Positions 41,546 through 49,133 of a DNA stretch of 64,000 bases are shown here, piece after piece. Positions within the stretch are counted from its first letter, which is position 1. The number at the start of each line of letters is the position of its first letter. The notes under the pieces are model-generated. The model had not been told where the DNA came from, did no database searches, and worked only from the letters and a program-made list of their open reading frames with translations. The stretch is from Chitinivorax tropicus (lineage in GTDB: Bacteria > Pseudomonadota > Gammaproteobacteria > Burkholderiales > SCOH01): NCBI RefSeq assembly GCF_014202905.1, contig NZ_JACHHY010000007.1:1-64000 (forward strand). Reading direction: 5' to 3'. Both the position numbers and the translations under genes were made by a program.

Positions 41546-42865
41546 TTACTGGGTCAGCCCGCCCACTTGGCGGGCCAGATAGCCTGCGTAGTTGTCCGTC
41601 ATGCCGCCGATGAAATCCAGCACTCGCATATAGGCCAAATACAAGGGCCAGCTGGGGTCGGGTACGTTGTGCTCCATCAGATCCAGCGTCCGTTTGGCAC
41701 GGAATGAGAGGCTGCCACTGGTCTTGAGCTGATAGACCGCGCTCAGGAATGTTTCCAGTAACACCTCCAACGTGGTGTAGGCACCAACCTCGATCTCGAC
41801 CTTCTGTCGGGTATTGAAGATCTTGGCGCGGGCCAGCCGCTTGGCTTCGTTCAAGCCATCCACGATATGTCGGGGACAGGTCACCAGTAGATCCTGTGTC
41901 AATTCACCTGCCAGCAGCAGATCGTGGTGTTCCGCAAAACTCAACGCCACCGCGTTCACCAGCCGCTGAATCGCCTTGCCCCGCAGCAAGGAGATCTTAC
42001 GGCGGGTGGTGGGGGCCTCGCACAGCTCTTCACGTAACGCAGTGCAATCCCCGATCAGCTCTACCAGAATCGGCTCGACCTGCTCATAGCTCAACACCCC
42101 GATTTCAATACCATCTTCCAGATCAAGAATGGCATAGCAGATGTCATCCGCCGCCTCCATCAAGTAAGAGAGCGGGTGTCGCGCCCAGCGATGGTGGCTG
42201 ATTTCGATCAAGCCCAGCTCAGCGGCAATGATCTCCAACTGCGGCAATTCAGATTGATAACAAGAGAACTTCTCTTTATTGCCAGCATGCTCAACCGTCC
42301 AAGGGTATTTCAGCAACGCGCCCAAGGTGGCATAGGTCAGCCGCAGGCCACCGGCGAAGCGATGGTTCTCCAGCTGCGTCACCACCCGGAATCCATGCGC
42401 ATTGCCCTCAAAAGTCTGCAGATCCCGTTGCTCAAGAGCGGTCAGTGGTGCGATCAAAGGCTGGTTGCGTTCCTGGCAAAACCAGTCCCGAATGGCGTAT
42501 TCACCAGCGTGGCCAAAAGGTGGGTTGCCAATGTCGTGTGCCAGGCAGGCTGACTGAACAATCGCCCCAAGATCGGTCGGAACGATGCCTGTGGGCAGCT
42601 TGTCGGCCAGCCGCTGGCCTGCCATCACACCAAGGCTACGCCCCACCGCAGCCACTTCGATGGAGTGGGTCAGTCGGGTGTGGACGTGATCATTTTCAGA
42701 CATCGGGTGGACTTGGGTCTTACGTCCCAGCCGTCGGAATGCGCTGGAAAAGACAATGCGATCATGGTCTTTGTGAAAATCGGTACGCCCGGCATCTTGT
42801 CCGGTGGGTTTGGCATTGCCCAGCCGTTCGGCGGATAGCAATTGAGTCCAGGTCATCAGAGGCAT
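41546..42865 (-). CDS. dgt: dGTP triphosphohydrolase-like dNTPase
   Basis: The 439-aa HD-domain enzyme removes triphosphate from deoxynucleotides. Visible motifs are RRLGRKTQVH, HTRLTHSIEVA, and the HD pair in CLAHDIGNPPFGHAGE. The sequence suits the type-2 dGTPase subgroup. It is convergent with the response regulator, with only five bases between them. Its start region faces the SAM-II-like RNA elements, so their promoters are divergent. Confidence 0.92.
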   Translation of the reverse strand: MPLMTWTQLLSAERLGNAKPTGQDAGRTDFHKDHDRIVFSSAFRRLGRKTQVHPMSENDHVHTRLTHSIEVAAVGRSLGVMAGQRLADKLPTGIVPTDLGAIVQSACLAHDIGNPPFGHAGEYAIRDWFCQERNQPLIAPLTALEQRDLQTFEGNAHGFRVVTQLENHRFAGGLRLTYATLGALLKYPWTVEHAGNKEKFSCYQSELPQLEIIAAELGLIEISHHRWARHPLSYLMEAADDICYAILDLEDGIEIGVLSYEQVEPILVELIGDCTALREELCEAPTTRRKISLLRGKAIQRLVNAVALSFAEHHDLLLAGELTQDLLVTCPRHIVDGLNEAKRLARAKIFNTRQKVEIEVGAYTTLEVLLETFLSAVYQLKTSGSLSFRAKRTLDLMEHNVPDPSWPLYLAYMRVLDFIGGMTDNYAGYLARQVGGLTQ

Positions 42866-42935
42866 GGTGGTGTTCGCTCGATATTGAACAACATGATCGG
42901 ATCGAGTCCGCCCCTTTCACCGTGAAAAAGGCAGC

Positions 42936-42965
42936 TTGACATGCTTAGCATGTGGGTTTTACATT
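42936..42965 (+). promoter_or_regulatory. Sigma-70-like promoter of RNA element A
   Basis: TTGACA at 42936-42941 and TACATT at 42960-42965 are separated by 18 bases. The predicted start (about 42972) falls four or five bases before the first stem of the RNA element, as expected for a leader RNA. Confidence 0.65.
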
Positions 42966-42975
42966 ACAGGCACTT

Positions 42976-43026
42976 CGCGCCAATTTGAACACAGCTTGCG
43001 GGCGCGCTACAAATACAGCTAAAGCG
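42976..43026 (+). ncRNA. SAM-II-like riboswitch candidate, copy A
   Basis: A perfect 6-bp stem (CGCGCC 42976-42981 with GGCGCG 43001-43006) encloses ATTTGAAC (42983-42990) and CTTGC (42995-42999), and is followed by GCTACAAATAC and GCTAAAGCG (43018-43026). This order (stem, GATTTrA block, CTTGC, stem, AAA-rich strand, GCTAAAG) is the conserved layout of SAM-II aptamers, a pseudoknot in which loop CUU can pair with tail AAG. A promoter lies just before it and a terminator 27 bases after it. Ligand identity is inferred from the pattern only. Confidence 0.6.
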
Positions 43027-43053
43027 TGGTGAGAAATGGCAACTGATTTCCCA

Positions 43054-43085
43054 AACCCGCTTGGCATGTGCAAGCGGGTTTTTTG
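43054..43085 (+). terminator. Intrinsic terminator after RNA element A
   Basis: A perfect 10-bp stem (AACCCGCTTG 43054-43063, CAAGCGGGTT 43071-43080) with a 7-base loop and six Ts (43079-43084). CCCGC of its 5' arm can also pair with GCGGG of element A (42998-43002), so a switch between aptamer and terminator is possible. No ORF separates aptamer and terminator. Confidence 0.92.
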
Positions 43086-43104
43086 CTTTATGGCTGTTCA
43101 TCGC

Positions 43105-43134
43105 TTGTTCAATATGTGTGTGACAGGCTATAGT
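43105..43134 (+). promoter_or_regulatory. Sigma-70-like promoter of RNA element B
   Basis: TTGTTC (43105-43110) and TATAGT (43129-43134) are spaced by 18 bases. The expected start (about 43141) lies four bases before the first stem of element B, the same geometry as for element A. Confidence 0.65.
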
Positions 43135-43144
43135 CTGACGTTCA

Positions 43145-43196
43145 GCGCCGATTTAACGAACAACTTGCGGGGCGCAATCGAAATTCCGCTAAAGCG
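43145..43196 (+). ncRNA. SAM-II-like riboswitch candidate, copy B
   Basis: Stem GCGCC (43145-43149) and GGCGC (43171-43175) encloses GATTTAAC (43150-43157) and CTTGC (43164-43168), followed by AATCGAAATTCC and GCTAAAGCG (43188-43196). GATTTAAC, CTTGC and GCTAAAG match the SAM-II consensus as I recall it, better than copy A at the first block. It lies in the leader of the 111-aa gene at 43253, with 56 bases to the start codon. No terminator lies in between, so translational control is more likely here. Confidence 0.65.
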
Positions 43197-43252
43197 TCGC
43201 CGGCGGGGCTCATCTCAAGGCGCGCGATTCATGCTCGCAACAGGAGATCACT

Positions 43253-43588
43253 ATGTTTGACTGCTATCTGGACGAATCCAGCTTCACCACCAACCAAGCC
43301 GCGACGGGTTCATCCGTGGCGCGTGTCGGGGATGCTGGTCTGCCGCCACGTGGCCATCCTCATAGCCGTATCGATATCGTATTCCATGCTGATACGATGT
43401 CCGGTGCCCGCCAGCAGATTCTTGCCCAGATTGCCAAGTTGGTTGCGGAGCCCATCGAATACAATGCCGGGCGCTACAGTGTCCGAGCCATCACCTTTGA
43501 GCAGGCCTTATTGATCAATCGCCTGGCTGGCGATTGGGGGGTGATCAACGCCATCGTCACGGCGGAGCGCCCTGGCCGGTTGGCTTGA
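43253..43588 (+). CDS. Unrecognised 111-aa protein under SAM-II-like leader
   Basis: AGGAG at ideal spacing precedes the ATG at 43253. The protein is soluble, mixed alpha/beta in appearance, with a His/Pro segment (GLPPRGHPHSRIDIVFHAD) and a helix SGARQQILAQIAKLVAEP, then an alternating hydrophobic C-terminal half. I recognise no family. It is the only gene between RNA element B and the terminator at 43684, so its regulation by the element is the main clue to function; methionine, SAM or one-carbon metabolism would be the guess if the element really senses SAM. Confidence 0.7.
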   Translation: MFDCYLDESSFTTNQAATGSSVARVGDAGLPPRGHPHSRIDIVFHADTMSGARQQILAQIAKLVAEPIEYNAGRYSVRAITFEQALLINRLAGDWGVINAIVTAERPGRLA

Positions 43589-43683: not shown

Positions 43684-43707
43684 AAAGCGGCGTTGGCCGC
43701 TTTTTTT
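43684..43707 (+). terminator. Intrinsic terminator between the 111-aa gene and the MATE gene
   Basis: A perfect 8-bp stem (AAAGCGGC 43684-43691, GCCGCTTT 43696-43703), loop GTTG, with seven Ts (43701-43707). It ends 16 bases before the MATE start codon. It either ends the 43253 transcript or attenuates the MATE transcript. Its 5' arm overlaps another ACTAAAGCG sequence preceded by a 6-bp hairpin (TGTGGC 43643-43648, GCCACA 43675-43680). Confidence 0.9.
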
Positions 43708-43723
43708 ATTTCATCGTGAATTT

Positions 43724-45115
43724 ATGTCGAGTCTTCCTGCAACCTCTTCACAAGCATTACCTGGCTTTGTCGGTGAGAGTCGCGCCATCTTGAAGTTGGC
43801 AGGTCCGATCATCGTGGCACAGCTCGCCCAGACAGCCATGGCCTTTGTCGATACCGTGATGGCAGGGCGTGTCTCGGCTGCTGATCTGGCCGGCGTGTCG
43901 CTGGGGGCCAGTATCTGGATCACTATCGTGCTGACTTTCACGGGCGTGCTATTGGCTGTCAGCCCCTTGATTGCACAGGCCTACGGCGGAAAACGGCATG
44001 TGGAAATCGGTGGCATCATGCGCCAAGGGATGTGGCTGGCACTCTTGCTGGGCGTCGTCTCCATTGTCATTCTGAAATATGGCGCACCCGTGGTGCTGAC
44101 ATTGGCCAACGCCGCGCCAGATGTGGCGGTTAAGGCAACTGGCTTCATGGATGGCGTGGCAGTCGGCATGCCCGCCTTCCTGCTGTACAAAGTCTTCAAT
44201 TCCTATACTTCTAGTGTCTCGCGCACCAAGCCCATCATGATCATCAGCCTGTTGGCCTTGGCGCTGAATGTGCCTGCCAACTACGTGTTGATCTACGGCC
44301 ACCTCGGTTTGCCCGCCATGGGTGGGGCGGGGTGTGGGTGGGCCAGCGCCTTGGTCAACTGGTTTTCGGTGCTCGCCCTGGTGGTGTACACCTGGCGCCA
44401 TCGCTTTTATCAGCAGTTTGAAGTCTGGAGCCGCTTTGAGTGGCCCAACTGGGATGCGCAGAAACGTCTGATCAAATTGGGTCTGCCGATCGGCCTGACC
44501 TTACTGGCCGAGGTCAGCGCGTTTACCATTGTTGCGCTGATGCTGGCGCGGCTGGGGGCTGCTGTGGTGGCATCCCACCAGATTACGTTGAATTTCTCTG
44601 CCCAGACCTACATGCTGCCATTTGGCATTGCCTCAGCCTTGACGGTGCGTGTGGGGCAACACATTGGCGCAGGTCACCATCACCTCGCGGCCCATACCTG
44701 CAAGGTGGGCCTGAAGCTGGTGCTGTTGATCGCATCCGCCACAGCGTTGTTGATCTGGGTCGGCGCAGGCTACATTGCGGCCATGTACACGCCAGACAAG
44801 GCTGTGCAAGCCATGGCCGCCACCCTGTTGATGTTTGCGGCAGCATACCAGATCCCCGATGCCGTCCAGGTCAGCGCGACTGGTGCATTGCGAGGCTATA
44901 AGATCACTACCTTTCCGATGGTGATCCAGATCGTCGCATTCTGGGTGGTCGGCATCCTGGGTGGCTATCTGCTTGGGTTGCGGGGCGTCTGGTTCATCAA
45001 TCAGGGGCAACCGTTGGGTGCGTCTGGGTTCTGGATTGCGCTGGTGTTATCGCTCACTGCAGCGGCCATCCCACTATTGGCGTATCTCGTGCGGATTGCC
45101 CGCCGCTATCGGTAA
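43724..45115 (+). CDS. MATE family multidrug/sodium efflux transporter
   Basis: The 463-aa protein has twelve helices in two MATE repeats. NorM-type segments include KLAGPIIVAQLAQTAMAFVDT and MAGRVSAADLAGVSLGASIW. It would export cationic drugs or metabolites using Na+ or H+. The ATG at 43724 has no strong ribosome site, and a terminator precedes it, which suggests conditional expression. A GTG-started extension through the terminator (43649) is rejected. Confidence 0.93.
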   Translation: MSSLPATSSQALPGFVGESRAILKLAGPIIVAQLAQTAMAFVDTVMAGRVSAADLAGVSLGASIWITIVLTFTGVLLAVSPLIAQAYGGKRHVEIGGIMRQGMWLALLLGVVSIVILKYGAPVVLTLANAAPDVAVKATGFMDGVAVGMPAFLLYKVFNSYTSSVSRTKPIMIISLLALALNVPANYVLIYGHLGLPAMGGAGCGWASALVNWFSVLALVVYTWRHRFYQQFEVWSRFEWPNWDAQKRLIKLGLPIGLTLLAEVSAFTIVALMLARLGAAVVASHQITLNFSAQTYMLPFGIASALTVRVGQHIGAGHHHLAAHTCKVGLKLVLLIASATALLIWVGAGYIAAMYTPDKAVQAMAATLLMFAAAYQIPDAVQVSATGALRGYKITTFPMVIQIVAFWVVGILGGYLLGLRGVWFINQGQPLGASGFWIALVLSLTAAAIPLLAYLVRIARRYR

Positions 45116-47301: not shown

Positions 47302-48651
47302 ATGATTCAAAAACTTATCCAGCGCGTATTTGGCCGGCGAAAAGCAGGCAAGGGACATCGTGCTGCCATCATCCCGCATCCGCAACATGGCATTGGTCGA
47401 GATCAGATCGCACACAGCGCCCTGAAAGTCATCGATAAGCTCCAGGAGGCAGGCTATGAGGCCTTCGTGGTGGGCGGGGCGGTTCGCGATCTGCTGCTTG
47501 GCAAGATACCCAAAGACTTCGACATCGCAACCAATGCGACGCCGGAGCAGGTGCATGGCTTGTTTCGCCGCTCCAGGATCATTGGTCGTCGCTTCAAGAT
47601 TGTCCATGTGACTTTCGGGCGGGATGAAGTCATCGAGGTGACCACCTTCCGGGGGGATTCGGACGATGGGCAGGTGATCGACGCCACCGGGCGTATCCTG
47701 CATGACAACGTGTGGGGGAGCCAAGAGCAAGACGCCCGTCGCCGTGATTTCACTGCCAACGCTCTGTATTACAACCCTGCTACGCAGGAGATCATCGACT
47801 ACCACCGTGGGGTGGAAGACATTGCGGCGAAGCGGTTGGTGATGATCGGTGACCCGTCGCTGCGCTATCGGGAAGACCCGGTGCGGATGCTCCGCGCGGT
47901 GCGCTTGTCAGCAAAGTTGGGCCTGACCATCGACGCAGCTACCAGCCAGCCGATTGCTACGTTGGCTGCCTTGTTGAAAAACGTCCCAGCGGCGCGTCTG
48001 TTTGATGAGATGTTGAAGCTGTTGTTCTCGGGGCACTCGCGCCAGTGCTTGCAGCAACTACGCCAGCAGGGCTTGCATCATGGGTTCTTCCCGCTGCTCG
48101 ATGTCATCATGGAGCAGCCGCTGGGCGAGCGTTTTGTGCAATTGGCATTGGATAACACCGATCAACGCATCCAGGCCGATAAGCCAGTTTCGGTAGGCTT
48201 TCTGTTTGCCTCACTGCTTTGGCATGAAGTGCTGGCCAGCTGGAAGGATCGCCAGGCAACCGGCGAGTTGCCGATCCCGGCCTTGTTCAGTGCAATGGAT
48301 GAAGTATTGGCGGTGCAGGAAGAGAAGTTGGCCATTCCACGCCGCTACAGCGTCACCATGAAAGAGATCTGGGCGTTGCAGCCACGCTTTGAGCAGCGGG
48401 CAGGCAAAAGGCCGTTCCGGTTGCTGGAGAACCCACGGTTTCGCGCCGGGTATGACTTCCTGTGCTTGCGGGCGGAGAGCGGCGAGGTCGAAATGGAATT
48501 GGCCGAGTGGTGGACACGCTTTCAAGATGTGGATGGCGCTGAACGTGAGCGGATGTTGATCAAAGACGAGGCGCAGCCCGCCAAGAAACGCCGTCGTCGT
48601 CGCCGCAAACCCAATGCCAAAGGGGGGGATGGCGCAGGAGACGCGGAATGA
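47302..48651 (+). CDS. pcnB: Poly(A) polymerase PcnB
   Basis: The 449-aa nucleotidyltransferase adds poly(A) tails that mark RNA for decay. The class II core is visible: FVVGGAVRDLLLG, KDFDIATNATP, RRRDFTANALYY, YREDPVRMLRAVR. A very basic tail (KKRRRRRRKPNAKG) ends the protein. It heads a run with folK (ATGA overlap), a deoxynucleoside kinase, panB, panC and hldE-C. A CCA-adding enzyme is less likely given the tail and gene order. Confidence 0.93.
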   Translation: MIQKLIQRVFGRRKAGKGHRAAIIPHPQHGIGRDQIAHSALKVIDKLQEAGYEAFVVGGAVRDLLLGKIPKDFDIATNATPEQVHGLFRRSRIIGRRFKIVHVTFGRDEVIEVTTFRGDSDDGQVIDATGRILHDNVWGSQEQDARRRDFTANALYYNPATQEIIDYHRGVEDIAAKRLVMIGDPSLRYREDPVRMLRAVRLSAKLGLTIDAATSQPIATLAALLKNVPAARLFDEMLKLLFSGHSRQCLQQLRQQGLHHGFFPLLDVIMEQPLGERFVQLALDNTDQRIQADKPVSVGFLFASLLWHEVLASWKDRQATGELPIPALFSAMDEVLAVQEEKLAIPRRYSVTMKEIWALQPRFEQRAGKRPFRLLENPRFRAGYDFLCLRAESGEVEMELAEWWTRFQDVDGAERERMLIKDEAQPAKKRRRRRRKPNAKGGDGAGDAE

Positions 48652-49133
48652 GTCGAGCCCAGGTGGTAGTCGCCCTGGGGGCCAATCTGGCTGACCCGGC
48701 GGCACAAGTGTTGCATGCTGTCGATCAGCTGGCCGCCTTGCCTGACACCCAGCTGCTGAAAGTATCGCCCCTTTACCGTAGCGCGGCGGTGGGATATGTT
48801 GACCAGCCTGATTTCGTCAACGCAGTCGCGCTGATCGAGACGGCCATGCAACCGGACGCGCTGCTGGTGGCGCTTCAGGCCATCGAGCAGGCTTGTGGGC
48901 GGGAGCGCACTTTTCGCAATGCGCCACGTACACTGGATCTGGACATTCTACTTTATGACGATCTGCACATCGTCAAGCCATCATTGACCATTCCACACCC
49001 TCGGATGAGTGAGCGTGCGTTTGTGTTGCTACCGTTGCTGGATATATTGCCAGAGTGCATCATTCCCGGTCTTGGCCCTGCCCAAGCATTTTTGTCGGGT
49101 TGCGCTGATCAGGTGATCGAGCGTCTGAAGTGA
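48648..49133 (+). CDS. folK: 6-hydroxymethyl-dihydropterin pyrophosphokinase FolK
   Basis: The 161-aa enzyme pyrophosphorylates 6-hydroxymethyl-7,8-dihydropterin in folate synthesis. Motifs ALGANLADP, QPDFVNAVALIET, RTLDLDILLYD and PHPRMSERAFVLLPL are present. The start overlaps the pcnB stop (ATGA). Confidence 0.96.
   Translation: MSRAQVVVALGANLADPAAQVLHAVDQLAALPDTQLLKVSPLYRSAAVGYVDQPDFVNAVALIETAMQPDALLVALQAIEQACGRERTFRNAPRTLDLDILLYDDLHIVKPSLTIPHPRMSERAFVLLPLLDILPECIIPGLGPAQAFLSGCADQVIERLK

Follow-up and report, generated by a model that had tools for sequence, protein, structure and literature searches.

Organization of the locus

Two elements resembling SAM-II riboswitches, copies A and B, stand in tandem on the forward strand of a 64,000-nucleotide stretch of Chitinivorax tropicus DNA (the window), followed by a small open reading frame (ORF) and a transporter gene. 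A sigma-70-like promoter (TTGACA-18-TACATT; 42936–42965) was located before copy A with 10 of 12 consensus matches, 1.1 such sites being expected by chance in the stretch scanned. The divergent gene on the opposite side of this promoter (41546–42865, minus strand) encodes an HD-domain protein (Pfam PF01966), which we take to be dGTPase-like. Aptamer A, assigned to the beta-proteobacterial type of SAM-II, spans 42975–43028; it comprises the P1 stem CGCGCC/GGCGCG, the third strand AATTTGA, CTTGC and GCTAAAGC, with P1 starting at 42975, CTTGCG at 42995 and GCTAAAGCG at 43018. A terminator scan placed its intrinsic terminator at 43053–43087, composed of a hairpin (43053–43081) plus a T run, in agreement with an earlier note on this DNA that had a terminator follow copy A. 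Before copy B, a candidate weak promoter (TTGTTC-18-TATAGT; 43105–43134) was recognized by eye below the scan threshold, with a poor TTGTTC box at 43105–43110 and TATAGT at 43129–43134. Aptamer B, the putative variant SAM-II subtype, occupies 43144–43200 and carries GCGCC at 43145–43149, CTTGCG at 43164, GGCGC at 43171–43175 and GCTAAAGCG at 43188; re-reading of the sequence confirmed the block positions claimed earlier for both copies.

The segment downstream of B contains a candidate anti-Shine-Dalgarno sequence, ATCTC (43212–43216), complementary to GAGAT at 43244–43248, and a GGCGC (43219–43223) that, according to the minimum-energy fold, may pair with the 5' strand 43145–43149 as an alternative to B's P1. 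The Shine-Dalgarno (SD) sequence AGGAGAT (43242–43248) precedes a 111-aa ORF (43253–43588) of a family beginning M-[YF]-D-C. This is the gene that the earlier note had called unknown, and indeed no Pfam or NCBIfam match was obtained for the 111-aa protein or for three of its relatives. A terminator-like hairpin found by the terminator scan (43684–43711) lies between it and a MATE family transporter gene at 43724–45115 (alternative start 43649; Pfam PF01554, E 6.4e-62).

Copy A and the Rfam SAM-II model

In a permissive Rfam search, copy A matched RF00521 (SAM_alpha, SAM-II) at 42967–43042 with 30.4 bits and an E-value of 4e-5, which is below the gathering cut-off of 36 bits; the gathering-score search of the whole window reached zero families. 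It was also matched at 42970–43037 (45.8 bits) by R1, a covariance model that we built from 10 aligned B copies of leaders other than those of metK and that detects both A and B copies. As in the RF00521 family, the P1 stem, third strand and CTTGC/GCTAAAG pseudoknot are all in SAM-II order, and a terminator follows. When 60 relatives were searched with RF00521 at E ≤ 0.01, 28 gave a match, 7 of them above the cut-off and 21 without any match above it, and the matches below the cut-off included metZ leaders, whereas none of 14 control genomes matched at this threshold. Rfam therefore under-calls the SAM-II elements of this branch. One of the 42 hits in relatives (G057b) is apparently false, since it lies in a coding region. 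By eye, a TTGAC box was seen about 40 nt upstream of many A copies in relatives, and terminators were seen 3' of them as well.

The C. tropicus genome holds a further credible SAM-II element of 28.5 bits with a terminator (L002 1501–1572, minus strand; C11:101864–101935), flanked by genes that, named from their translations, are presumably purF and metZ. In this element, GCTAAACCG stands in place of the GCTAAAGCG block. Five of the seven RF00521 matches in this genome (E 0.4–2.5) were disregarded because the 14 control genomes match likewise at E ≤ 10. Copy A was also covered on the minus strand (42948–43084) by RF02424 (Bp2_287, "Burkholderia sRNA") with 36.5 bits against a cut-off of 70 (E 1e-6). 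The printed consensus of this family, once reverse-complemented, reads as a SAM-II element plus terminator, so RF02424 probably corresponds to a SAM-II leader read in antisense.

SAM-II elements of alpha- and beta-proteobacteria are described as mostly terminator-linked in the relevant part of PMC2258182. Copy A further resembles, by description, the "metXZ" element of Leyn et al. (2014, PMC4239095), a conserved-block pseudoknot with a terminator before metX or metZ; in the passages concerned, that element was named as new, with one copy per genome and none for metK. Judged from these features, copy A is predicted to be an ordinary beta-proteobacterial SAM-II riboswitch with a terminator, of a type already published.

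Copy B and its relation to known families

Copy B scored 15.0 bits against RF00521 (43135–43212, E 0.12), far below the cut-off of 36 bits and only when its short stretch was searched alone. The comparison with RF00521 that the earlier note had suggested thus bore out copy A, at a score under the cut-off, and failed to do so for copy B. R1 returned 79.6 bits (E 1.9e-20) for copy B, whose own sequence is part of that model. The assignment of B draws on this match together with the RF00521 score, its conservation in two relatives and its kin before metK. None of the B copies at 20 loci (17 before metK, 3 before the small ORF) was matched by RF00521 at E ≤ 1, and the 11 Rfam matches at E ≤ 1 in these loci all lay off the B copy: six were SAH riboswitches, L086 had RF00521 and RF02424 matches on its A copy, and L123 had one match to mir-4423 and two to potC outside its B.

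The earlier note had also proposed SAM-V (RF01826) as a comparison. It gave 0 matches at E ≤ 10 on 42900–43300 or on B alone, and a SAM-V identity for copy B was rejected. Trp_leader (18.4 bits) and Oskar_OES (20.5 bits) on the 42900–43300 stretch were far below cut-off and were rejected. The GGAM motifs, as described in part of PMC7736828, sit upstream of sugE and so differ from B, and the "SAM-II long loops" elements of PMC2864571, described there from Bacteroidetes and marine sequences, were absent from our Rfam searches. As a post-hoc chance check, a loose core pattern composed after the elements had been seen was counted: the window has a single occurrence, at B, copy A not fitting the pattern, and 60 simulated windows averaged 0.017 occurrences each. 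The real argument against chance for the pair rests on conservation, more than on this pattern count.

B copies before metK

Among 399 genomes of the order, 314 were matched at E ≤ 0.01 by R1, which reports A and B copies alike. We examined 90 of the best matches, consisting of 30 loci and 60 matches picked from the list. Three of the 30 loci stood before metK; the 60 picked matches comprised 41 before metK, 13 before the small ORF and 6 before other genes or A copies. No A copy was seen within 300 nt upstream of the 41 metK B copies. A set chosen independently of R1, consisting of one metK from each of 60 relatives (extra copies of G032 and G033 omitted), had an R1 leader element at E ≤ 5e-7 in 16 cases. 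The leader of G010 was cut by a contig end, and R1 found no B before metK in 43 of the 59 readable relatives, nor before the metK of C. tropicus itself. A DNA-pattern scan of named species genomes yielded at least 117 stretches, 99 before metK, 11 before the small ORF, 6 before other genes and 1 unreadable, shares that describe the scan pattern only because it was written from known B copies. Eighty of these stretches divided into 65 before metK plus the cut-off L227, 9 before the small ORF (7 plus the cut-off L232 and L244) and 5 others; the other 37 divided into 32 before metK plus the cut-off L304, 2 before the small ORF, 1 before another gene and 1 unreadable (L312). Genera with metK B copies include Cupriavidus, Bordetella, Polynucleobacter, Undibacterium, Thauera and Dechloromonas, and those with small-ORF B copies include Chromobacterium, Aquitalea, Vogesella, Silvimonas and Andreprevotia. 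B without A occurs before metK across many families.

According to the passages of PMC4239095 on this subject (2014), beta-proteobacterial metY, metK and metNIQ lay outside the known methionine regulators, and attempts at finding new elements for them were unsuccessful. The B subtype would be a concrete, testable candidate regulator for beta-proteobacterial metK, and R1 a probe for copies missed by Rfam's SAM-II model. In the openly available literature, of which we consulted parts, on SAM-II with metK, beta-proteobacteria or Burkholderiales and on SAM riboswitches with MATE transporters, no paper on B was found. As far as its sequence and placement tell, B appears to be a new variant, mostly found before metK.

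Conservation of the A–B pair

G001 and G003 show A, terminator, B and ORF in the same order as the window, which makes three genomes from two genera of the family to which the window belongs. The 111-aa ORF was matched in the same 3 of 60 genomes (C. tropicus, G001 and G003), and none was found in G002 and G004 of the same family. The check proposed in the earlier note, a search for the same pair in relatives with covariation of P1, came out in favor of the elements. A B copy follows A's terminator in 10 of the 42 RF00521 hits of relatives, the window counted. Furthermore, R1 matched 126 of 274 genomes of the class at E ≤ 1e-4 (three from the same order are among the matches listed), and A–B pairs outside the order were found in L319, L320, L322 and L328. 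One such genome, G643, holds ten R1 matches on contigs C2 and C6, forming five pairs 93–107 nt apart.

The locus is quite probably a tandem two-stage SAM OFF switch, in which one leader RNA would be controlled in transcription and then in translation. A second SAM-II in the same genome, before metZ, supports this reading; against it stand the score of B far below the Rfam cut-off and the terminator-like hairpin at 43684–43711, between the small ORF and the MATE gene. Alternatively, A and B might be separate transcription units, A yielding a terminated small RNA that serves as a sponge or acts in trans, and B acting alone from its own promoter. The strong terminator that closes A, the presence of TATAGT/TATATT before B in G000 and G001, and the occurrence of B without A before metK would suit this arrangement. 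It is nevertheless unlikely, as the window scan found no sigma-70-like site before B, the TATAGT kept in G001 was unseen in G003, less than about 20 nt separate A's terminator stem from B in G057, and in L319, L320 and L322, which lie outside the taxonomic order, A, terminator and B again follow one another before other genes. Of the promoters that the earlier note had given to each copy, the one before A consequently stands, and that before B is reduced to a non-conserved box seen by eye. Likewise, A as a stand-alone terminated RNA is not supported.

A two-stage SAM switch on one leader has published parallels, and, contrary to what the earlier note had supposed, the duplicated arrangement is not unusual in itself: the parts of PMC9481103 that treat tandem SAM-II report 44 cases, two SAM-II per leader, some combining a terminator first with ribosome-binding site (RBS) control second. 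The B copies may be among these cases. The B subtype, metK leaders and the present operon go unmentioned in those passages. The Pelagibacter tandem of SAM-II and SAM-V, as summarized there, is similar in that the first aptamer acts on transcription and the second on translation, with the same pocket fold. It differs in that B has no SAM-V match and that the SD in the window is not beside P2 but about 40 nt 3' of B.

Covariation and pocket bases

The P1 and pseudoknot pairing was examined in 116 distinct elements (A and B), in which 93.3% of cells were paired against 85.6 in shuffles, a value reached by 0 of 500 shuffles; slid versions of the pairing gave at most 45.5%. For four of five covariation measures, none of the 500 shuffles came as high; for the fifth, further pair types, 18 did. 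P1 pair 8/74 was GC in 59, CG in 27, UA in 26 and AU in 2 of the 116 elements. In 82 distinct B rows, found with R1 and selected by the bases before CUUGC, it was GC 27, TA 26, CG 25 and AT 2, paired in 80 of 81. In P2b of these rows, the innermost pair was CG in 82/82, the second AT in 72 with 8/82 unpaired, the third GC in 69, AT in 6 and GT in 3 with 4 unpaired, and the outermost was formed in 49 and unpaired in 29 of 78. These pair counts are inflated by relatedness, and the alignment was fitted to P1, not P2. As A rows form the second P2b pair in just 13 of 30 and the third in 4 of 17, the P2b extension belongs to B; B of the window has one A–C mismatch in it. Copy B's P1 and P2 pseudoknot are hence supported by covariation. 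The loss of CTTGC and GCTAAAG and the non-compensatory stem changes that the earlier note had held against such elements are absent for P1, and one P2b position is unpaired in a few lineages, including window B.

The third-strand base and the base before CUUGC were A/A in 157, G/G in 77 and other combinations in 7 of 241 distinct elements collected with a strict pattern; a looser pattern with many false matches gave 175, 85 and 33, respectively (n = 293). A homopurine G–G or A–A coupling was predicted for SAM-II in the pertinent section of PMC2258182, and the difference between A and B fits it, although the placement on these bases is our own reading; two large clades could yield the split in few events. 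The linker after CTTGC has two bases in 157 of 161 B copies and at most one in 65 of 79 A copies. The 82 R1-found B rows keep the third-strand UU in 81 (one row is misaligned), CUUGC in 80 and GCUAAA in 82, so that, by our own mapping of contacts from part of PMC6061858, the SAM-contacting bases (UU of the third strand, UUGC and UAAA) appear to be kept in B.

B thus agrees with RF00521 in block order, pocket blocks and the A–A form of the homopurine pair. It differs in having A/A against the G/G of A copies, the two-base linker, a CGAC/GUCG extension of P2 and no terminator, and in its score far below the cut-off; in most metK copies, G also replaces the first third-strand U. In counts for which the pattern itself demanded the next two U and GCUAAA, this first base is U in 76 of 79 A copies, G in 108 of 114 metK B copies, and U in 14, G in 11 and A in 2 of 27 small-ORF B copies. 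Its counterpart by order is probably U8 of SAM-V, a base in contact with the U that holds SAM's adenine in the structural account of PMC6061858. Since most metK copies (108/114, against 11/27 small-ORF copies) carry G at this third-strand place, beside the U that binds adenine, B might sense a ligand other than SAM, or SAM with altered selectivity. We regard this as improbable: window B keeps U there, the other SAM-contacting bases of SAM-V have kept counterparts in B, and metK is the expected place for a SAM sensor. That B is a functionless, decaying duplicate of A, as its low RF00521 score and the P2b mismatch in the window might suggest, is highly improbable, since B is maintained, along with compensatory changes, both in two genera of this family and as a lone element before metK in many families. 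In the favored two-stage SAM switch, B would be a coherent SAM-II subtype that retains its pocket bases, has the coupled G/G replaced by A/A, mostly carries one more linker base and lacks a terminator. The SAM-II-like identity proposed earlier for both copies is supported by the covariance match of A, the homology of B, covariation and the kept pocket bases.

Expression platforms and proposed mechanism

In 139 distinct metK leaders, the best stem between the 26 bases after GCTAAAGC and the SD region scored 16.15 on average, compared with 12.38 (sd 0.16, 60 deals) when SD regions were dealt among leaders and 12.01 with shuffled segments. The complementary words differ by metK lineage, as in CTGCTCC/GGAGCAG, CAGGCTC/GAGCCTG and GTTCCT/AGGAAT. 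In the small-ORF leaders of three genomes, ATCTC/GAGAT was recognized by eye in the window and G001, and TTGCTTC/GGAGCAA in G003; the window stem has just 5 bp, and the scripted best stem for the window was GCGGG/CTCGC instead. B apparently acts on the ribosome-binding site. No coupling between P1 and GUCGCC (3' of the pseudoknot) was seen by eye, and the minimum-energy fold of the window B region, with pseudoknots unscored, was no stabler than shuffles (z +1.44).

Homology, conservation, covariation, gene context and the covariation of anti-SD and SD in the metK set make a two-stage SAM switch the most likely reading of the locus. In the first stage, SAM binding to aptamer A would favor the terminator at 43053, and transcription would stop. 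RNA that reads through would carry aptamer B, the variant SAM-II, on which SAM would stabilize the P1/P2 pseudoknot and free the 3' segment; this segment would then pair with the SD and block translation of the 111-aa protein. At low SAM, P1 of B would be undone, with its 5' strand pairing with GGCGC at 43219, and the start site would open. Plentiful SAM would reduce expression of the small protein at both stages, and perhaps that of the downstream MATE transporter too. SAM binding by A and B and the function of the operon are predictions from sequence, and we infer that SAM is the ligand, that it turns expression off, that transcription reads through from A to B, that the start site opens as described and that the MATE gene is controlled.

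The small protein, the MATE gene and other genes behind B

Behind a GCTAAAGC element, 39 distinct small proteins, some near-identical, begin with M-[YF]-D-C. In 35 of these 39 loci, a MATE-like sequence was detected downstream by motif search; two of the remaining four have less than 1 kb of downstream sequence, and two have no MATE motif. An A copy lies upstream of at least 34 of the 39 small ORFs, 27 flagged by script and 7 more in which A had itself served as the script's anchor. L094 has its A further upstream, L234 is cut at the locus end, and none was seen at L069, L070 and L093. In an alignment of 25 small proteins, M1, D3, C4 and L86 (window numbering) are invariant; the small protein is fast-evolving. 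The AlphaFold model of the 111-aa protein is weak (mean pLDDT 57, pTM 0.44), and its helix–strand–strand–helix order with short strands at both ends gives a weak hint of a ferredoxin-like pattern. A PDB search with this model returned 966 matches at E ≤ 10 and 0 at E ≤ 0.001. As a tentative and rather doubtful extension, B might be a separate, widespread SAM-II subclass that provides the missing metK feedback in many beta-proteobacteria, and the A–B pair might drive a new SAM-homeostasis operon, whose small protein of ferredoxin (ACT-like) fold and MATE transporter would detect or transport a SAM-cycle metabolite.

B copies also stand before AAA ATPase genes (L064–L067, L269, L321 and L322), with an A–B pair in L322. 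We presume these genes to be MoxR-like and know of no link between them and SAM. The pair may hence represent a reusable transcription-plus-translation SAM module placed before genes without a known SAM link, such as those of the orphan small protein and MATE and the AAA ATPases. In G033, an A–B pair (C22:46497–46710) precedes an ORF, and a second metK-like gene (47941–49065) lies about 1.2 kb downstream.
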